The notes under the pieces: model-generated
The model's database searches: none
What the model saw: the letters and a program-made list of their open reading frames with translations, nothing else
Told to the model about the DNA's origin: nothing
Source: Thermoguttaceae bacterium
Lineage (GTDB): Bacteria; Planctomycetota; Planctomycetia; Pirellulales; Thermoguttaceae
Assembly (NCBI GenBank): GCA_029975295.1
Contig: JARKPK010000004.1
Location: 1 to 44,001 of the forward strand
Length of the DNA: 44,001 bases
Reading direction: 5' to 3'
Program-made: the position numbers and the translations under genes
Shown here: positions 1-12,606 of the stretch, piece after piece
How the letters are laid out: each line of letters begins with the position of its first letter
Position numbering within the stretch: position 1 is the first letter of the stretch

Positions 1-1713
1 CGGCTCCAGCGGCTCGGCCCGAAGCGGTTCGTCGCTGTCGGACGGCGCTGCCGGCGCAACCGAGCCTGCCTTGGCGGCCTCGGGCGCACGGCTGGCGGCG
101 ATCATCGCATCGACCGCCGGCCGTTCCGCACGTTTCATCAAGTGCGTGAATGGTCCAACTGGCCGCCCCAATAGAGGCTTTTGCGATTGCGACCAGCAAG
201 CGATCGGTTCGGCCAACCACGAACCGGTCTGCTCGGCCAACCGCGGAAGCACCGGGGCCAAGTAAACCACCAGCTGACGGAACAAATTGATGCCGATCGT
301 ACACACCCGCTGCAATTCGGCCTCTTTGACCGACTGTTTGGCCAAGTCCCAGGGGGCGTGATCTTCGATGAACTTGTTGGCCCGATTGCCCGCAGCCAGG
401 ATGATCCGTACCGCTTTGGCGAAATCGCATTCTTCGTAGGCGGCCGCAATCGCCGCGCCGTCGGCGGCCGCTTGAGCGAACAAGCCTCCGTCGTCGGGAT
501 ACTCCGCGGCCAAACCCACGCGCGAGGCGAATCGCGCCGTGCGGCTGGCCAAGTTCACCACGTTGCCCACCATGTCGGCATTGACTTTGGCCACGAACTC
601 GTCGAGGTTCAAATCGATGTCCTCGACGCGCCCGTTGAGCTTGGCCGCGTAGTAGTAGCGGAGGTAGGCCGGGTCGAGATGTTCCAGGTAGGTCGCGGCG
701 CGGACGAACGTGCCTTTGCTCTTCGACATCTTCTCGCCGTTGACCACCAGATGGCCGTGGATATGCACCTTTTTCGGAAGGTTGAATTCGGCCGTGTGCA
801 GCATCGCCGGCCAGAAGAGCGTGTGGAAGTAGGTGATGTCTTTGCCGATGAAGTGGTGAATTTCCGTCTCCGGATCGCGCCACCAACGGTCGATCGATTG
901 GCCGACCCGCGCGCACCATTGGGCCGTCGAGGCGATGTAGCCGATCGGGGCGTCGAACCACACGTACCAATATTGGCCCGGCGCATCAGGAATCTCGAAG
1001 CCGAAGTACGGCGCCGGCCGCGACACGTCCCAATCGCGCAGCGGTTCATTAAGGAAATGCCCTTTGAGATAGTTGGCCACCTCGGGCTGAAGTGCGCCGC
1101 TCTCTTGCGTCCACGATTCTAGAAACGGCCGCAACCGCTCGATGTTGACGAACAGATGCGCCGACTGGCGCAGCTCGGGCCGCGTGCCCGAAAGCGTGCT
1201 GACCGGATCGACCAACTCCGAGGGGCTGTAATGCGCGCCGCACTTATCGCAACTGTCGCCGTATTGGTCGGGCGCGCCGCACTTTGGGCAGGTTCCTTTG
1301 ACGAAGCGATCGGCCAGGAACGTGCCCGCCTGAACGTCGTAAAGCTGCGTAACCTCTTGTTGCGAAACCAGCCCTTTGCGGCGCAGTGCGGCCCAAATCT
1401 CGGCGCAGACTTGGCGATTCTCTTCGCAGTGGGTGCTGCCGTAGTTGTCGAAGCGGATGTCGAAGCCGGTAAAATCCTTGATGTGCGCATCGCGCATCCG
1501 AGCAATCAAGTCGGTTTCGGGCACGCCTTCTTCGCGGGCGCGAATCATGATGGCCGTGCCGTGCGTATCGTCGGCGCAGAAATAGCGGCACTCGTTGCCG
1601 ACCAATTGCTGAAAACGGACCCAGATGTCGGTTTGGATGTACTCGACGAGGTGCCCGATATGGATATGCCCGTTGGCGTAGGGCAACGCGCTGGTAACCA
1701 GAATCCGTCGCAT
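1..1713 (-). CDS. metG: Methionyl-tRNA synthetase, 3' end outside the window
   Basis: Cytosolic class I aminoacyl-tRNA synthetase that charges tRNA-Met. About 571 residues are visible; the C-terminus runs off the window's left edge. The start at 1713 gives [15 protein letters not shown], the usual MetRS opening, with the HIGH-type signature HIGH at residues 18-21. A four-Cys zinc knuckle is visible as CPKC (142, 145) and CDKC (155, 158). The KMSKS loop is intact at residues 328-332. The last visible part is the anticodon-binding helical domain, ending in an Ala/Pro/Glu-rich linker that could lead to a C-terminal tRNA-binding or dimerisation domain, which I cannot see. It is divergent from the secreted-protein gene at 2122. 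Identification is secure. Confidence 0.97.
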
Positions 1714-2121
1714 CAGAGAGTTCTCGCTTGGTCCGATTCGGGCATGGGGAAGCGACGTCGCGGCCTCGGCTGCACCGCTGCCCGAACCGTTCGAATATGC
1801 CATTGCATCAACAATCAACGCGACCGCAGACGCAGCAAGAAGGCCGACTTCGTACAACCGCCCTACCGACGGGCGATGCGTCTGCCGCCGAATTATCTCG
1901 AAGGCCTTATTCTAACGCCACTTTCGACTGCGGACAGCACCCCGACGACCGCCGCAGCGCTCGCAGCGGCCCGAGAGCGACCACTGCCCGCTTTTTCCGC
2001 CAAACAGGGCGATGAAATTCGCAGGAAATTGAGGTTCCGTCGCCCCCGAGAATGCGGTTACAATCCGTGCCGGTGGAATGCCCGGCCCAACTCAAATGCC
2101 TGGCCCGACGAAAAAGGAACG
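1714..2121. other. Divergent intergenic region, metG / secreted protein
   Basis: This stretch separates two divergent genes, so it should hold both promoters. A TACAAT hexamer at 2059-2064 could be a -10 box for the plus-strand gene, but no good -35 stands at the right distance. I see no coding sequence: the open frame running through from 1156 is an antisense shadow of metG continued upstream of the real start. Confidence 0.4.
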
Positions 2122-3324
2122 ATGCCCATGGCGCGATGGATCGCCCGGTTTGCTCCGGCAGTGTTCAGTTTGATTGTGTTCTGTGTTTTTGCTGCGGGCA
2201 TCGGCGGCCGCGTGTGGGGACAGGGGACTTACCCGTCGTACCCACCACCTGGTCAAGCAACCCAGCCGACGGGCGGCTATCCGTCGGCCGCACCGGGCGG
2301 GCCCGATCAACCCGTCGATCCGCAAATGCCGCGGCTCGAACGCCGCGTGCCGCCGCAACCCTACGGGGCGGGACAGGGCGCTCCAACCGGCTCGTACCCC
2401 GCACCGGCAGGTGGTGAGTATCAACCGGCCCCCGGCAGTGCGGCAGCGCCTTCGGCCGGCGGGCCGTACGGCACGCCAGCCCCCGGAGCCGCGGCGGGCG
2501 GCGGCGCAGCGGCTGGGCCGATGCCGCGCGCGATGGCCCAGACTCCGCCGGCACCGTTCGATTTGACCCCCGAGCAGGTGGCCGATGTCGAACGGGTTCT
2601 GCGGTTGTGGGAACAGCGGAGCGCGGGCGTGAAAACCTTCGAATGCCGCTTCAAGAGATGGGATTACGACCGGGTGTTCGGCCCCAAGGATGTTCCCCGA
2701 TACGAAGATATCGGCGTAATCAAGTACGCCGCGCCCGACCGCGGCGTATTCCAAGTGACCGACACCGTGATTTACGACCCGCAAGATGTCGAACGCCGGA
2801 ATCCGCGCCAGCAACCGATTGAGCCCGAACGCGCCGAGCATTGGATTTGCGACGGCAAATCGGTGTTCGAGTACATCCCGCGTCAGAAGACCGTCAACGA
2901 GTATCCCTTGCCGCCCGAGTTGCAGGGCAAGGCCATCGCCAACAGCCCGCTGCCCTTCTTGTTCGGCTCTCGGGCCGACGACTTGAAGCGACGCTACTTC
3001 CTGCGGATCATCACGCCCGTGGAGTTGCAGACCCAACAAACCTGGATCGAAGCCTATCCGCGCTTTCAGGCCGACGCGGCCAACTTCAGCCGAGCCATCC
3101 TTGTGCTGCAAAACCACAACATGCAGCCGTTCGGCATGAAGGTGTTCGCCACCAACGGCAAGAACGAAACCTCGTACCAGTTCTTCGAAATCGTCGTCAA
3201 CGATCCGTTGCGATTCTTCAAGGGCGATCCGTTCCGCGCCGGCGTGCCCATCGGCTGGAAGAGCGTCGTCCATCGTTCCAACAACGAGCAGGCGGGCCGA
3301 ACAACCCCGCCGGGAACCCGATAA
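2122..3324 (+). CDS. Secreted planctomycete protein, TIGR03009-like
   Basis: Protein of about 400 residues resembling the TIGR03009 family, known mainly from planctomycetes; its role is unknown and its fold is likely LolA/LolB-like. A signal peptide is visible (Arg near the start, then a hydrophobic run to about residue 33). Residues about 35-150 are low complexity, rich in Pro, Gly, Ala, Gln and Tyr. The folded domain follows, from about LTPEQVADVERVLRLWEQRS to the end, with conserved aromatic and charged positions (FECRFKRWDYD, EHWICDGKSVFEY). An AAGGA sequence lies at 2113-2117; ATG at 2122 or the in-frame ATG at 2128 could be used, and 2128 has the more usual spacing. The frame is open back to 1156, but that part overlaps metG antisense. 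The family assignment is from memory of conserved features. Confidence 0.8.
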   Translation: MPMARWIARFAPAVFSLIVFCVFAAGIGGRVWGQGTYPSYPPPGQATQPTGGYPSAAPGGPDQPVDPQMPRLERRVPPQPYGAGQGAPTGSYPAPAGGEYQPAPGSAAAPSAGGPYGTPAPGAAAGGGAAAGPMPRAMAQTPPAPFDLTPEQVADVERVLRLWEQRSAGVKTFECRFKRWDYDRVFGPKDVPRYEDIGVIKYAAPDRGVFQVTDTVIYDPQDVERRNPRQQPIEPERAEHWICDGKSVFEYIPRQKTVNEYPLPPELQGKAIANSPLPFLFGSRADDLKRRYFLRIITPVELQTQQTWIEAYPRFQADAANFSRAILVLQNHNMQPFGMKVFATNGKNETSYQFFEIVVNDPLRFFKGDPFRAGVPIGWKSVVHRSNNEQAGRTTPPGTR

Positions 3325-3360
3325 GGCGACACGTTGGGGCGACACTTGCAACGGCTGCCT

Positions 3361-3489
3361 CCGTGCGATTCATGGCGGTCCCTCCGTTTTTCCAGGGTTG
3401 AGGAAACATAAACCTTTTTCCGAAAAACGTTTGTCGAGGGACCGCCAGTTTCTTCCTCCAACCAAAATCAGTGGGGATGAGTCAGGGTT
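3361..3489 (-). repeat. Dispersed structured element, copy A
   Basis: About 129 nt, read on the minus strand, roughly three quarters identical to copy B at 9000-9128 (plus strand). Outer hairpin arms are AGGGACCGCC (plus coordinates 3437-3446) and GGCGGTCCCT (3374-3383), a perfect 10-bp inverted repeat. Just inside lies a second pair, CGTTTTTC / GAAAAACG. On the minus strand the 3' arm contains GGAGGGACCGCC directly before an ATG (start at 3374), which opens MNRTEA. The shared block ends just after that ATG. It lies between the end of the secreted-protein gene and tRNA-Lys. No known RNA or IS family is recognised. Confidence 0.7.
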
Positions 3490-3712: not shown

Positions 3713-3785
3713 GCCCCCTTAGCTCAGTTGGTAGAGCAATTGACTCTTAATCAATGGGTCGAAGGTTCGAGTCCTTCAGGGGGCA
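3713..3785 (+). tRNA. tRNA-Lys (anticodon CUU)
   Basis: A 73-nt cloverleaf. The acceptor stem is GCCCCCT / AGGGGGC with discriminator A at 3785. The D arm contains AGCTCAGTTGGTAGAGC. The anticodon stem is ATTGA / TCAAT around the seven-base loop CTCTTAA, giving anticodon CTT (Lys, codon AAG). The T arm contains GGTTCGAGTCC. No CCA is encoded directly after the discriminator. Confidence 0.97.
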
Positions 3786-4138
3786 CTAACTCAGCATTCG
3801 GAAAGTAGTTGCGCTCTGCAACCCTCGGCGCGGTTTCGCGCGGGCAATTCTTTCTTCCGCGGCGTTTGCTGCTTCTGCCGTTTCTGGACGGGAGTGTACG
3901 AGCCGAGCTTTCGACCGACCCGATCGCGCAGATGGGGCCCCGGCTTTAGTCCGAATATATCCTGCTGGTTTTCCGTGTTGAATGGGTCCGTGTGGGCAGC
4001 CCGGCCGAGCCTTCGCCTCGCTTCGGCCCGTCGTCGGCAAGTTCGCCAAAAGCTCGGCGGCGCGGTACACTTGCTGAACGTGACCGCGCGGCCAACGGCT
4101 TTGAAGAAACCGCCCATTCTCCCAAAGGAGCACCGACG
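3786..4138. other. Intergenic region, no gene seen
   Basis: This 353-nt stretch lies between tRNA-Lys and the DUF1080 gene. Frames read through it on both strands, but none has a ribosome-binding site or recognisable protein. No repeat or terminator stands out; the promoter of the downstream gene is presumably here. Confidence 0.3.
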
Positions 4139-5446: not shown

Positions 5447-5493
5447 ATTGCCGATCGTTGCGAACGTAAACCCTTATGGCGCAACGACCAAAG

Positions 5494-5566
5494 TACCCCC
5501 TAGGGGACTCGAACCCCTGTTCTCGGACTGAGAACCCGATGTCCTAGGCCACTAGACGAAGGGGGC
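5494..5566 (-). tRNA. tRNA-Glu (anticodon CUC)
   Basis: A 73-nt cloverleaf on the minus strand: 5' GCCCCCT, D arm CGTCTAGTGGCCTAGGACA, anticodon loop TTCTCAG (anticodon CTC, Glu, codon GAG), T arm AGGGGTTCGAGTCCCCT, acceptor 3' strand AGGGGGT and discriminator A. The closing pair is a G-U wobble. No CCA is encoded. The short CTTCG/CTAG D-arm start is typical of tRNA-Glu. Confidence 0.95.
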
Positions 5567-6206: not shown

Positions 6207-8807
6207 TTACTCTCCACTGGCGGAAAGCCAGTAGTCGAGGTGCTCGGCCTCGAGTTCTGCCAGCCGACGTCGTTTCGATAGGAAGTGTTCGTAACGCGCA
6301 ACTTCCTCATCGCTCCAAGCGTGTGCCTCCCGATAGTCGCCGCAAAACGGCACGCCCGGGTCGATCCAGGCCATCAGCTTGGCCATTTCTTCCTGAGTAA
6401 GCGTTACGCCCTCGTGTCCGGCAATCATCATGTCGATGAGTTTGCTGCGGGCCGACCCGGCGGAGTACGGCGGCAGCATGTTGGGAACCGACTGGGCGCT
6501 GATCCAGTTGACCAAGCGATGATCGGGGTCGCCGCGCCACGCCCAGCCATCGTGGGGTTTATCAGGCCGGGCATGCGTCAGTGTCAAGTACGCGGCGGTC
6601 CACCGGCGCTTTGCCCGCGGATCGAGTATTTCCCGGTCAGTCAAGTCGAGCGGCTTTTCGGCGCTGCCGTCGTGGCACTGAGCGCATTTACCATTGAGGA
6701 TCGGCTGAACTTCGCGCAAAAAACTGAAACCGCGCGGTGGCCCGAAGGGCTGTTCGAGTTCCTTCGGTGGTTGGCGCAAAGCCTCCGACAGCCGCCGTTC
6801 GTGGAGTGGCGCGGTGTTCTTATGCTCGTGACAGCCTACACACGAGGCCGTTTCGCCCGGCTGCAACGTGACCCAGCTACGCATCGACTGGACCATCCGT
6901 CCCTGCTCGTCGAGTAGTTGAAAATATATGGGCGTGCGCGCCGGCACACGGAACACCACCGAGCCGTCGGGATGCACCTCGGAGTCGCCGATGATGGTCT
7001 TCGGGTCCCAGGCGCCATTGCCGACAGCTATTGGAGTGCTGACCACTGCACCGCCGCCGGGGCCGCCGTTGTAATTCTCGCCGATGCCGGCCGCACGAAA
7101 AGCTATCGAAACCACTCGCAATCGCTTCACTGTTCCGCGCTCGATGCCATTCAGCCCCGGCCCAGCGTACACGTCCTGCACGTAACACACGCCGTCGCTG
7201 CGGCGGAAGTCGACTGTGCTGGGCCGCACGTGGGCTTGTCGGGCGCGAACTGGAATCGACTGGTTGCACGGCAACCGTTGGTCGCGCACCAAGAGTTCGC
7301 GCCGTCCGTCAATGGTCACAAAGTAAATTGCAAATCGCGGTCCAAACTCGCCGGCCCATCGCCAGCCTACCGGATGATAAGTGACCAAGTATTCTGTTTC
7401 GCTGATGGGATAAGGATACTGGAACAGTTCACCGTCTTGGCCGTAGGCGTCGATCTTCACCGCCGGCGTGTGGCGCGGAGGTGCAATGAGCTGCACGCCC
7501 TGGTTTTCCTGGCGCCCGCGAGCCGGGTCGATCAGAATCAGTTTGCCCGTCTGCCGCGAATGATGTCCTGTGGCGATCGCCGCCACCTTCCGCGTGCCGG
7601 GCACGCTGCGCGCGTGCAAGATCGTCGTTGGAAACCACGAGTTGCCCCCGAAGAACTCGGCCTGGCCCGTGCCGTCCGGGTTCATCTGCAACAGCGGTTG
7701 AGTAAAGATCTGGCCGCGGTCGTTGTATTCCCAGCGGGTGTACAACACGCGGCCGTCTTCGGTCACGGTGGGGAAGTTGGTATGAACCTGATCGAAGGTC
7801 AGCCGCCGGATGCGTTTTCCCGACGGATCGCAGCGGTATAGATTGCTCACCTCGGTCCACCAGCAATCGACGATCTGAACACAGCGGGTGGAGTTGAAGA
7901 TGATGTCGCCGTCGGGCAGATACGCGCCTTCGTAATCGGCGACGCCCAGCCCTTCGGTCAATTGCCGAACCGCGCGCGACGCCAAATCCATCTCGTAGAG
8001 ATGATAATCGTCGTGGCGCGAAGATTTCTTCCACGCAAAAAGCACCCGCTTTCCGTCGAAACTTATGTCTGGGTCGCGGATCACTCCCCGCGGATCATCC
8101 ACCAAGGTCTCCACCGAGTACTGCGTGCCGTCCCAGCGAGCCACACACAGCGCCGCGGGCGGTTTGAAATGCCGCTCGTGTTGGGCGTCGGACTGGCCTT
8201 CCGTGTACGCATAATGCGACCCGCCCAAAGTGTAGTGTTTCGTAAAGACGAACTGCGGCGCCTGCTTCACCAACGATTCCAAACGCAGTTGCCGACGGCG
8301 CCGGCAGGCTTCGACGTAGAGGTCGACCCACTGCGCGTCGTCCGCGGGTGTATTGACTGCGACGAGGCGATCGAGCCGCTCCCGCAGTGCGGCGGCTCCG
8401 TCGCCCAACTCGTCGAGCACCTTGTTGATCAGAGCGCGCTGGTTGACGGCAGCGCTTTGGGGATCGAAAAACCAAGCGAAATCGCGGGACGGTTGAAACT
8501 CCGAATCACGGGATGGCCGCGCAGGCGCATCCTGCATGAACCAATCCATCTCCGTAAAGTCTTCCCACAGCCGGCGGCAAAGCCCGTCCCACATTGCATC
8601 ATCCATCGGCTCGCCGGCCTGGCGCCTCTGCGCCACGGCGCCGCGCAGGGCAACCATGGTTTCCACCCAGGTTTTCTGCGGAGCGTATAACGCATCGGCC
8701 TCGTTCGCGCCGAGGGCAAACGGCCGATCACACAACAAGGCAACCAGTGTTGCGCCTAGCAGGCGGCTGATTGCCTTGATCGGGCAAGAAACGAAGGGTG
8801 TTCTCAT
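6207..8807 (-). CDS. Exported HzsA-related c-type cytochrome with beta-propeller
   Basis: An 866-residue exported protein. The start at 8807 gives MRTPFV and a signal peptide ending near FALGANEADA; the frame is open to 8927 but adds only low-quality sequence. After an N-terminal helical region come TolB/WD40-like propeller blades (DPDISFDGKRVLFAW, YLPDGDIIFNSTR, NFPTVTEDGRVLYTRWEYND). The C-terminal half resembles the middle domain of hydrazine synthase alpha, common in planctomycetes that do not make hydrazine. Two haem-c motifs are visible, CVGCH and CAQCH. It should be periplasmic and bind two haems. Genuine hydrazine synthase function is unlikely without the beta/gamma subunits, none of which lies nearby. 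Its partner and substrate are unknown. Confidence 0.82.
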   Translation of the reverse strand: MRTPFVSCPIKAISRLLGATLVALLCDRPFALGANEADALYAPQKTWVETMVALRGAVAQRRQAGEPMDDAMWDGLCRRLWEDFTEMDWFMQDAPARPSRDSEFQPSRDFAWFFDPQSAAVNQRALINKVLDELGDGAAALRERLDRLVAVNTPADDAQWVDLYVEACRRRRQLRLESLVKQAPQFVFTKHYTLGGSHYAYTEGQSDAQHERHFKPPAALCVARWDGTQYSVETLVDDPRGVIRDPDISFDGKRVLFAWKKSSRHDDYHLYEMDLASRAVRQLTEGLGVADYEGAYLPDGDIIFNSTRCVQIVDCWWTEVSNLYRCDPSGKRIRRLTFDQVHTNFPTVTEDGRVLYTRWEYNDRGQIFTQPLLQMNPDGTGQAEFFGGNSWFPTTILHARSVPGTRKVAAIATGHHSRQTGKLILIDPARGRQENQGVQLIAPPRHTPAVKIDAYGQDGELFQYPYPISETEYLVTYHPVGWRWAGEFGPRFAIYFVTIDGRRELLVRDQRLPCNQSIPVRARQAHVRPSTVDFRRSDGVCYVQDVYAGPGLNGIERGTVKRLRVVSIAFRAAGIGENYNGGPGGGAVVSTPIAVGNGAWDPKTIIGDSEVHPDGSVVFRVPARTPIYFQLLDEQGRMVQSMRSWVTLQPGETASCVGCHEHKNTAPLHERRLSEALRQPPKELEQPFGPPRGFSFLREVQPILNGKCAQCHDGSAEKPLDLTDREILDPRAKRRWTAAYLTLTHARPDKPHDGWAWRGDPDHRLVNWISAQSVPNMLPPYSAGSARSKLIDMMIAGHEGVTLTQEEMAKLMAWIDPGVPFCGDYREAHAWSDEEVARYEHFLSKRRRLAELEAEHLDYWLSASGE

Positions 8808-8999
8808 TTTGGCGGGGTGAGATGCAATGGGGTTGCGTTGTGGAAAGCCTGCGGCTGCCGAAGCATTGCACCGGAAGCGCGAACGCGACGCGCGGCTCGG
8901 GATGTTCCGATCGCCCGATTGCCGCACAGGGGCAGCGGTCTATCGCACGCGGGATTCATTCAATGATGCCCGATTGCGGCCCCGGTATCAAGCCTGTGC
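8808..8999. other. Intergenic region, first part
   Basis: Upstream of the cytochrome gene; it should contain its promoter. No convincing -35/-10 pair or gene was seen. Confidence 0.3.
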
Positions 9000-9128
9000 A
9001 ACCCCGACTCATCTCCAAGTGGTTATGGTCGGAGGAAGAATCTTGCGGTTCCTCGACAGACGTTTGTCGGTAAGAGGGCATCTTCTCTCGACTCTCGAAA
9101 AACGCAGGGACCGCCATGAATCGCACCG
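9000..9128 (+). repeat. Dispersed structured element, copy B
   Basis: Plus-strand counterpart of copy A (3361-3489). Outer arms are GCGGTTCCT (9045-9053) and AGGGACCGC (9106-9114): against copy A one base differs, turning a G-C pair into G-U, so the stem survives. The inner pair CGTTTGTC / GAAAAACG has one mismatch. AGGGACCGCC again precedes ATG (9116), opening MNRTDA; that frame ends after 14 codons at TAG. The loop is the most divergent part. It sits between two minus-strand genes. Confidence 0.7.
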
Positions 9129-9334
9129 ATGCAATGGGCGCGGTGCGCAATCCGGGTTAGCCTGCCGGCAAGCCAGACGAACACATTGGCCGATTTGGTC
9201 GGCGCGGCCTTGAGCGTCGGCTATGGCGGGCTGGCGGAAGAACGATTCCATTCGAAAACGTGAACACGCGCCGCTGTCGGCCGACGCGGCGGATTTGCAA
9301 TCGTGCGTCCGCCGTCGCGTTGGGATTTCAAACA
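9129..9334. other. Intergenic region, second part
   Basis: Between element copy B and the end of the beta-helix gene. Apart from the end of the 14-codon frame started in copy B, nothing is recognised; the large plus-strand frame beginning here is an antisense shadow of the next gene. Confidence 0.3.
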
Positions 9335-11665
9335 CTAGTCCTTGCCGACTTCCACCGTCTGGGGCTGCTGGTCGCGGACAATGCCCACGCGAAGCCGTCC
9401 GCCGGTGGGCTCCTGCCGTCCGATCAGATCGGCCGGCGATTGGACTGGTCGGGAGTTGACGCTTTGGATCAGATCGCCGGTTCGAAACCCCCATTTTGCG
9501 GCAGTGGAGTTTGCCGGCACTTCGACCAGGAGAACCCCGCCCGATTCCTTGCTGACACCGTACGCAGAGTATTCTTCTCCCTGAAGAGCGCGCACGTTCG
9601 CTTCGAGCCATTGATGCGTCGCGCCGGCCGGCGCAATCGGGGCGGCGATTCGTATCTGCGGAACCTCCGGCACGCGCGCCATCGCCTTCAGCCGCGGAGA
9701 TTGCACGCCGAAGCGATCCATGGGGAAGTTTCGAAAGCCGAGTTTCGCTGCCGGAGACTCTTTCTTCACCCGGAAATCGCCGCGGGACGCATCGTAAAAA
9801 AGAGCGTCGCCCACGAGCGAATGACGGTCGCAGCCGTGGTTGGCGAACCGGGTGCGGTCGGCCTCGGAGGTGGTGAACAGGTTTCGGTCGATCTCTTTGC
9901 CCCAATTCCCTTGAGGCATTCCGCCGGCGGGGCGATAGGCGCCCATCCAAATGTTGCCGGTCACCTCATCGCCGCTGTTGTCGTACCACACGTGCGGATG
10001 AAGCGAATTGTTGACCGCGATGTTGTTCCAAACCTTGCGATGGAATCCCTCACGCAACTTCAGCCCGCCGCGAAGAAAGAGATTATTGTAGATCTCATAA
10101 TTCGACGATCCGTCGTCGAGGTCCACGTCCCACCCGTGATCGCAGCGCCAGCGGCTGTTGCGGATGACGTTCGGCCCGACCATGTCCAGCTTCGCCAGTC
10201 GCGGCAGTTCCGCCGGCGGGGCGTCTTCGAGGCCCCAGAATCGGTCGCGGCCCCACGAGTTGAAGCTGCCGTGGTCGCCCGTTTCGAGCACCGTGTCGAA
10301 GACATCGCAGAACTCGATTACGTGCCCGCCGAAGGTCCCCTCGCTGATGTTGATGCCCGCCCGCGACGCTTCATAGATCGAGCAATGGCGAATCGTGACG
10401 TTCATCGCCATGGAAAGTTGGATGCCTGTAGCCTGCTTCTCGACCACGCCCATTCGGCGGATGAGGCAGTCTTCCACCAGGCAATCAGCCGGGTAGTTGT
10501 TTGTTTTCGGGCCGGGGGTCTGATCGATCCGGTGGTAGCTTTGGCGTTGATGATACTCGAACAACGGACTGCGCACGGCTTGCGGATCGCCCACCAACGC
10601 AACGGCGCTTGCCCCAGTGTCGCGAATGTCGCAGCCGCGGATGGTGATGCGGCGATTGTAATTATTGACGAATACGGCATTCCCGCCGAGTTGGTCGAAA
10701 TCGCAATCCACCACCGTGCAGTCTTCCGCGCCATCAAAGAACAGGGCGCCGCCGCGATAGATGGTCCAGTCGCTGCGGAGCAGCGGTTCTCGCACATCCA
10801 TAAAGGTGCGCGCCGCATGACGAAACACGATTCCGCGCAGCGTTACGCCGCGAACCGGCTGCGACGGCGTGCCGCGGAACTCGACCAAATGACGCAAGCG
10901 GACCACCTCGACAACGGCCTTTTCCAAGTTCGAGCCGGCAAGGGGCATGTAGTAAAGCGTCGCTGCCTGCGGGTTGTGGAACCATTCGCCGGGCGCATCG
11001 AGCTCCTCGAAGATGTTCTCGACGTAGCGATGCTGCGGATGCATGCCCATCTGGCGGTTGTTCTGCCAACCGCCCTCATACAACACCTCGCCCTTGTCGT
11101 TCTTTCCGGTGATGCGATAGTGATACCCGCCCCAATGAGCGCGATGCATGGCATGGATAAACCCGCCGGCCGGATCTTTCCAGCGCGCCGCACGCTGCGG
11201 GCTGAGCGCGTCGGCCGCGTATCCCCCGTAGGGCCGCACGTTCGCATCGAAGTTCGGGTAGCGGGCCATCATCTGCCGTCGGCCGTCGATGAAGAGCTGA
11301 TCGAACACCAATCCCGCCGGAGTGGATGCCTTGATGATCCCATCGCGAAACGGTTCCCAGCGCAGATCGAGTTTCAATCCGCCGCTGACAACAACCGCTT
11401 CGCCCGCGGCTGCGCGGTACTCGCAATCGTTGTCGGCCGGTGTGAACACGATCGGTTCCGGCAAGTAATACACGCCGCCGTGCAGGATCACTATCGCGCC
11501 CTTTGCCGAGCGCGCCGCCCGCTGTGCTCGGGCAATGGTTGCAAAGGGTTCTGCGGCTGTGCCGACTGAATCATCGTTGCCGGCTGGAGAAACGTGGTAC
11601 TCCGCCGCCACCGCCGGAATCGGCGAAAGAAGCAGTGCGACTACCAGGGGCATGCGCAGATTCAT
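9335..11665 (-). CDS. Secreted right-handed beta-helix protein with C-terminal PDZ domain
   Basis: A 776-residue exported protein. The start at 11665 is preceded by GGAGCTACCG and opens a signal peptide ending in IPAVAAEYHVSPAGND; the frame is open to 11743 but without support. EYHVSPAGND followed by GGVYYLPEPI is typical of parallel beta-helix carbohydrate-active proteins. The middle contains repeated helix rungs (VVDCDFDQLGGNAVFVNN, ITIRGCDIRDTGASAV, VTIRHCSIYEASRAGI). The last 85 or so residues form a PDZ-like domain: AAKWGFRTGDLIQSVNSR fits the PDZ core, followed by a final strand. The catalytic part may be a polysaccharide lyase or glycosidase; which one cannot be told. The PDZ could anchor a partner or substrate in the periplasm. 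Confidence 0.85.
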   Translation of the reverse strand: MNLRMPLVVALLLSPIPAVAAEYHVSPAGNDDSVGTAAEPFATIARAQRAARSAKGAIVILHGGVYYLPEPIVFTPADNDCEYRAAAGEAVVVSGGLKLDLRWEPFRDGIIKASTPAGLVFDQLFIDGRRQMMARYPNFDANVRPYGGYAADALSPQRAARWKDPAGGFIHAMHRAHWGGYHYRITGKNDKGEVLYEGGWQNNRQMGMHPQHRYVENIFEELDAPGEWFHNPQAATLYYMPLAGSNLEKAVVEVVRLRHLVEFRGTPSQPVRGVTLRGIVFRHAARTFMDVREPLLRSDWTIYRGGALFFDGAEDCTVVDCDFDQLGGNAVFVNNYNRRITIRGCDIRDTGASAVALVGDPQAVRSPLFEYHQRQSYHRIDQTPGPKTNNYPADCLVEDCLIRRMGVVEKQATGIQLSMAMNVTIRHCSIYEASRAGINISEGTFGGHVIEFCDVFDTVLETGDHGSFNSWGRDRFWGLEDAPPAELPRLAKLDMVGPNVIRNSRWRCDHGWDVDLDDGSSNYEIYNNLFLRGGLKLREGFHRKVWNNIAVNNSLHPHVWYDNSGDEVTGNIWMGAYRPAGGMPQGNWGKEIDRNLFTTSEADRTRFANHGCDRHSLVGDALFYDASRGDFRVKKESPAAKLGFRNFPMDRFGVQSPRLKAMARVPEVPQIRIAAPIAPAGATHQWLEANVRALQGEEYSAYGVSKESGGVLLVEVPANSTAAKWGFRTGDLIQSVNSRPVQSPADLIGRQEPTGGRLRVGIVRDQQPQTVEVGKD

Positions 11666-12606
11666 CGGTAGCTCCGCGGGTCTGAAAACACCTATCGAAC
11701 GAGGGCCAACGATTGGTCCGCACCGCGCAGGTGAGCGGGCCAATGGTTCGGCTCAACGTGGCTTTTCCCGATTCGTGGCGTTGTTCATCGATTCTCAAGG
11801 CATCAAGGCCACTCCGCGCGATCACGATTGTCTGCGGCGACCGGCCCCGGGGCTGCCGCGATAACCGTTGCCGCTGAGCGGCCCCAACGCCTTGTGTGTA
11901 TTTTTTGATCCTCGGATCGCCAGCGTTGAGTCCGGGAATCGGCTTTTCCCCGTGAAACCCGGCTTCCCGTTGGTCGGACTCGCAACATTTTTCCTTCGCG
12001 CCCCACTTTTGTGGGCGCATTGACATGCTTGCTTTGTCAGGTCGTCGATGCGACAAGGCCGCGGGGAGGAAGGATGGTTTGTAGGGCGCGGTGCGAACCT
12101 GCCATTGGGTTGGGGTTACGAAGTCCAATTGACGCCGCTTTTTCGCGGCTCTCAATCGCACGGCCTGCCGGCTTGCGGAGATGTTGGCGTTGGCGTCTGA
12201 GCCGAGCCGGCATCTTACCTATTCTCACCAGAGATTGCCAGCAAGCCAGCAAGAACGAATCGGGTCGGCAGGTTGTCAACAAAGCGGTGGCGTGATAAGC
12301 TGCATCCATTCTGCCTATCGGTGTTCGGAAGGGCAATGCAACTGGGCCGACCAACGGAAATTCGATTTCCGGGGAGACTGCCTGGCAGTGGTGTTGTTGT
12401 TCTGATGATCGATAACGGGACTTGTCGGCGGCGGATCGGTTGGTTTGCGGCGGCAGCCGAAGGCGGCAGATACTGCGGCGAGGAACTGGGCCGCAGCGGT
12501 GCGGGGCCGTGTTCGATCGGTGCGGCAGAACCATTTCAGGCCGCGCGGTCGCGGCTCGCAATGCTCGGAAGGCGCCGGGCGGGCTGTTCTTCATAGGAGC
12601 AACGCG
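11666..12606. other. Long intergenic region upstream of csrA
   Basis: A 941-nt stretch between two divergent genes, with no recognised gene. A hairpin with arms GCGCCCCAC and GTGGGCGC (11998-12018) has no T run. TTGACA at 12020 has no matching -10. The csrA promoter or a 5' regulatory leader is probably here, but I cannot place it. Confidence 0.35.

Follow-up and report, generated by a model that had tools for sequence, protein, structure and literature searches.

What are two copies of a short hairpin element, each with a ribosome-binding site (RBS) in the 3′ arm of its stem, doing in a 44,001-nucleotide stretch of DNA from a Thermoguttaceae bacterium? An earlier note on this stretch, which we call the window, proposed an RNA switch or thermometer that hides the RBS, or else a small structured mobile unit. 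We conclude, with a probability of roughly 0.87, that each hairpin marks the left end of an old, truncated insertion sequence of the IS4 family that resembles IS10, and that the leader of such an element presumably serves as protection against read-through transcription.

Two copies of a hairpin at a start codon

Only two copies of this element were found in the 5.0-Mb genome, as a search with copy 1 returned only itself and copy 2 (E 5.7e-28). The proposed likeness of about three quarters over 129 nt agrees well with the 76% identity that we find over 129 aligned positions, with the bounds corrected to those given here.

3356..3485, minus strand: copy 1, the left part of an IS4-family element, comprising the CTGACTCATCCCCA tip (at 3485), the leader hairpin and the transposase start up to codon 6
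3437..3447, minus strand: 5′ arm of the copy 1 outer stem (TGGCGGTCCCT)
3371..3383, minus strand: 3′ arm of copy 1 (AGGGACCGCC) and ATG (A at 3373)
9004..9133, plus strand: copy 2, the left end of a like element, with its tip CCGACTCATC at 9004, the leader hairpin and codons 1-6
9043..9053, plus strand: 5′ arm of the copy 2 outer stem (TTGCGGTTCCT)
9106..9118, plus strand: 3′ arm of copy 2 (AGGGACCGCC) and ATG (9116-9118)
9116..9242, plus strand: start of a decayed IS4-family transposase gene in copy 2 (SQTNTLADLVGAALSVG...), about 42 codons

As first described, the 3′ arm is AGGGACCGCC in both copies and is followed directly by ATG AAT CGC AC, which opens the reading MNRT(E/D)A. It is at this conserved ATG that the transposase encoded by the insertion sequence itself begins. 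The outer stem differs between the copies at two positions rather than at the single base noticed before. One of them is indeed a change from C-G to U-G, but the other breaks a G-C pair in copy 2, where a U stands opposite a C. Similarly, the loop (75% identity over 52 positions) had been taken for the least conserved part, but the tip and spacer are lower (63% over 38). The 5′ arm is 82% and the 3′ arm 100% identical, each over 11 positions.

When each copy was folded and compared with 200 dinucleotide shuffles, five shuffles equalled or surpassed it (z -2.0 and -2.2), a signal that is modest when taken alone. Only two tRNAs were matched in the window by Rfam models at gathering thresholds. 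A tRNA-Lys at 3713-3786 (plus strand) and a tRNA-Glu at 5493-5566 (minus strand) separate the two copies, which are oriented tip to tip. Each tip is bordered on its outer side by the four bases AACC. There was no blastn match to copy 2 among plasmids, and the exact pattern of the 3′ arm plus ATG gave 0 matches in a set of genome contigs from which the present genome was possibly excluded.

The intact element and its remnants

A DNA search of 60 genomes, including the present one, revealed relatives in two genomes of the same family (G030 and G007). There, the matching sequence opens a dispersed repeat that is bounded by the inverted ends CTGACTTATCCCCAG ... CTGGGGATAAGTCAG, and the right part of these repeats holds pieces of a transposase C-terminus that end in NWG-stop inside the right end. 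When this C-terminal protein was traced in 296 genomes of the order, nine long open frames were found in G312 and one was found in G127. There are also two copies of the element in G528, which belongs to another order of the same class.

The nine copies in G312, a genome of the same order as the window, have an intact transposase frame and run from CTGAGCCATCCCCAG to CTGGGGATGATT(C/G)AG. Eight of them are 1,238 bp long and one (L101) is 1,239 bp; seven are identical, L086 carries six differences, and L101 is a variant. Target duplications of 8-10 bp accompany every G312 copy except L086, as well as one of the two G528 copies, and none was found in G127. Terminal inverted repeats are present at both ends in G312 and G528. 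The G312 elements have the same CTGA...ATCCCC tip and the same hairpin as the window copies, within a leader that reads GGCGGTGTC ... GGAACCGCC-ATG, and their 365-amino-acid transposase begins MDRMEA (MNRMEA in L101), corresponding to the MNRT(E/D)A of the window copies.

The G312 and G127 transposases score 198 and 190 bits with the NCBIfam IS4-family model NF033591, for which the cut-off is 152, and the G312 protein also matches Pfam DDE_Tnp_1. A YREK motif in the transposase is a trait of the IS4 family. This motif can be read by eye in the G127 transposase (YGKRMTIEEMFRDYK), and its Y is replaced by F in G312. Nothing useful was obtained from Pfam with the C-terminal transposase fragment or from a PDB sequence search.

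Two side observations concern these relatives. Copies L086 (G312:C4) and L128 (G528:C31), from different orders, are identical over 2,908 bp that include the insertion sequence and both flanks, and this copy has no target duplication; a recent transfer, a shared carrier or assembly contamination could each account for the identity. In addition, there are MITE-like derivatives of this insertion sequence at L040 259-1525 (G030:C5), L006, L013 and L043. By eye, they contain tandem units of about 24 bp between the hairpin arms, other repeats break up their remnant of the transposase C-terminus, and several G030 contigs end inside them.

Examination of what follows each copy in the window led to a transposase remnant behind copy 2 and to about six codons behind copy 1. 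Thus, the earlier remark that no recognised gene follows either copy does not hold for copy 2 as far as origin is concerned. In a tblastn search with the G312 protein, residues 17-42 match behind copy 2 at 9162-9239 (E 0.023), and the transposase N-terminus is still readable there over about 9159-9239, in a frame that an indel disrupts near codon 15. The N-terminus from a further element, in G371, matches at this place when compared with the window (E 4e-5), and the DNA alignment of copy 2 with G371 extends to about 9242. When the G371 N-terminus was compared with the whole of the present genome, its top match again lay behind copy 2, and it is weak alone (E 0.039). The remnant appears convincing through its place and order, the score being weak by itself (E 0.02-0.04).

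Copy 1 is cut off after about six transposase codons. Its likeness to the element stops some 30 bp before the end of the gene at 1156-3324 (plus strand), which carries a TIGR03009 domain and towards whose 3′ end the copy reads from the opposite strand. Copy 2 also reads towards an opposite-strand gene, at 9335-11743 (minus strand). Another gene in the window, at 6207-8927 (minus strand), encodes a 906-amino-acid protein with a hydrazine-synthase alpha middle domain (Pfam, E 2.2e-33) that scores far under the NCBIfam hydrazine synthase cut-off.

The window copies are fossils that have no working transposase. Searches of the present genome found nothing with the complete transposase of G312 (E <= 1e-20) or of G127 (E <= 1e-25), and nothing with C-terminal transposase fragments at E <= 0.001 and 1e-8. 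Of the terminal inverted repeats, the left tip alone was found in the window copies, and two pattern searches of the window for a right end gave matches solely inside the two left tips, at chance level. These findings bear on the possibility that each copy is a MITE, a miniature non-autonomous derivative that has both ends and is moved in trans. Both copies are short, and MITE-like two-ended forms do exist in G030 (for example L040 259-1525). However, apart from the two left tips themselves, the window yielded no match to a right end of a known type, and the decayed transposase gene continues behind copy 2, and so we consider a MITE to be quite unlikely. The suggestion of a mobile unit is correct in that the copies are part of something mobile, but the small self-contained unit was rejected on account of the right end not found in the window.

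Copy 1 and the G371 leader share 77.8% identity over 99 nt (blastn against the window, E 1.7e-16). The identity of copy 1 with the G371 element (75%) is about the same as that with copy 2 (76%), and therefore it seems likelier that related elements inserted twice, independently, than that one copy was duplicated in place. The arms are again the kept part in the comparison with G371 (100% and 91%). Perhaps the host has retained the copies for a function as structured RNA or as a switch of translation, that is, as an exapted leader of an insertion sequence, given that the 3′ arm is perfectly kept in copies that are only 76% identical overall. However, because the G371 comparison looks alike, the conservation reflects constraint on living elements and not in this host. 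Moreover, one outer pair is missing from copy 2, the genes towards which the two copies read lie on the opposite strand, and only two copies were found in the genome. Retention by the host is thus very unlikely, and truncated left ends of IS10-like insertion sequences remain the preferred reading.

Covariation of the arms and predicted pairing at the start codon

A covariance model (R1, the RNA family model) was built from ten leaders. A search of planctomycete relatives with such a model had been suggested in the earlier note, and it indeed found further copies. There are matches in at least 12 of 386 genomes of the order, including five that had supplied leaders for the model (the present genome is one of them), this number being a lower bound because large sets were scored with stricter filters. 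The leaders compared below number 27, of which 17 were collected by a model that scores the outer stem, and therefore the set favours paired leaders. Transposases alone were sought behind these leaders. A transposase match on the same strand (three queries, E <= 0.01) follows 17 of the 27, three of these matches being the queries’ own loci. Copy 1 and one leader at a contig end are among the ten without a downstream match.

The leader hairpin shows compensatory changes across leaders. Covariation of the pairing, likewise put forward for examination in the earlier note, is evident when the pairing of each leader’s own arms is compared with that of swapped arms in permutations that, like the shuffles described below, ignore the relatedness of the leaders. 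None of 50,000 permutations was as good for the 27 leaders, nor for a set with one leader per genome (13 leaders), and 79 of 50,000 were as good for the 17 further leaders. For the 12 leaders found by DNA or protein, 2 of 20,000 permutations were as good, and the own 3′ arm was the best partner in five of the 12. In an alignment of the 27 leaders made from sequence only, 83.4% of cells pair versus 38-59% for slid partners. Cells that are changed on both sides number 19, whereas shuffles give 10.3 and none of 500 reaches 19; each slid control also has fewer. For example, GGCGAT stands opposite ATCGCC in G099 in place of GGCGGT opposite ACCGCC.

Two other measures are no better than shuffles with the 27 leaders, namely the number of pairs with change on both sides (235 of 500 shuffles as high) and the number of further pair types (430 of 500). 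The same holds for both measures with the first ten leaders (266 of 500 and 500 of 500), for which the covariation score is weak (37 of 500).

The upstream arm is predicted to pair with the RBS and the start of the transposase message. As a mean over the 27 leaders, the predicted pairing of the start region (-14 to +3) is 0.77 in the full leader versus 0.57 without the upstream arm. Pairing is greater with this arm in 24 of the 27, and the other three lose none without it. With a shuffled upstream arm the predicted pairing is 0.65, and the full leader is higher in 23 of the 27.

This predicted sequestration upholds one part of the switch proposal, namely that the RBS is hidden, but not a riboswitch or an RNA thermometer that controls a downstream gene. 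The location of the RBS in the 3′ arm of the stem would suit either device. However, neither copy matches an Rfam family at gathering thresholds and the loop is variable among leaders, and on these grounds the riboswitch was rejected. The mean predicted start pairing is 0.79, 0.77, 0.75 and 0.72 at 20, 37, 50 and 60 °C, and from 37 to 60 °C it falls from 0.92 to 0.87 in copy 1 and from 0.73 to 0.62 in copy 2. A thermometer was rejected because warming from 37 to 60 °C is predicted to reduce the pairing of the start region so little. Furthermore, the transposase sequence behind 17 of the 27 leaders, where only transposases were sought, speaks against both devices. Both devices are therefore extremely unlikely, and the preferred reading is again that of an insertion-sequence leader that presumably protects against read-through.

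In the intact element, the upstream arm GGCGGTCCCT, located after the tip, would pair with a downstream arm that carries the RBS and reaches the transposase ATG. A read-through transcript from a neighbouring host gene would have both arms, and would fold so as to hide the transposase start. In this way, the landing site would not switch the element on. A transcript begun internally, between the arms, would be without the upstream arm and might be translatable. Such fold-back regulation would call for an internal promoter between the arms. No sigma-70-like promoter was found there in the window copies or in G312, and planctomycete promoters may differ from this type.

Meaning and comparison with known systems

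The hairpin of the element probably hides the transposase start from outside transcripts, a form of self-protection that is already known and is encountered here in a planctomycete. The object in the window is ordinary but instructive, since a puzzling riboswitch-like two-copy repeat becomes a well-understood one. As a caution, planctomycete intergenic hairpins with a hidden RBS may be fossils of insertion sequences. The leader set constitutes a covariation-supported candidate for read-through protection beyond the model enterobacterial elements. A literature search on IS4-family insertion sequences in planctomycetes gave nothing evidently on this element in the accessible portions of the sources, and we do not claim that it is unpublished.

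More tentatively, the start-hiding hairpin might be an inherited hallmark of the entire IS10-related branch of the IS4 family, forming one R1 RNA family with which read-through protection could be mapped in many genomes through covariation and whose loop has been enlarged by tandem arrays in G030 and G007. If this rather doubtful reading is true, the branch runs from planctomycetes to enterobacteria, and the hairpin has been maintained through compensatory change.

In IS10, read-through transcripts are subject to fold-back inhibition, and the transcript from the internal promoter is without the upstream arm. The target duplications of IS10 are 9 bp long, and an antisense RNA (RNA-OUT) is a further trait of this element. 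Its read-through protection was reportedly described by Davis, Simons and Kleckner in 1985. The relatives of the window copies are IS10-like in their CTGA..ATCCCC tip, their target duplications of about 9 bp and their IS4-family transposase. They also have an inverted repeat that reaches over the start codon with its 3′ arm, and the start is predicted to be freed without the upstream arm. The tip of Iso-IS10R, taken from an E. coli plasmid, is CTGAGGTATCCCCAG, and this element likewise has an inverted repeat, or hairpin, over the start codon, with a predicted start pairing of 0.83 with the upstream arm versus 0.43 without it. By this analogy, the leader pattern fits IS10 fold-back inhibition of read-through transcripts. 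However, the transposases of Iso-IS10R and G312 are merely 29% identical over 285 amino acids, the arm sequences are different (GGCGGTCCCT here versus AACATTCATGGCG in IS10), and the window copies are truncated.

The leader hairpin of IS200 follows the same principle of hiding the RBS. According to the accessible part of the source, one IS200 stem-loop stops impinging transcripts and another occludes the RBS, whereas the transposase is of another class and there are no terminal inverted repeats (PMC3196728). ISPpu9, as far as the accessible part of its source goes, differs in having a long 244-nt untranslated region (UTR) and an activating antisense RNA, and is alike in that folding of the 5′ UTR restrains the transposase and keeps it low (PMC8450116).
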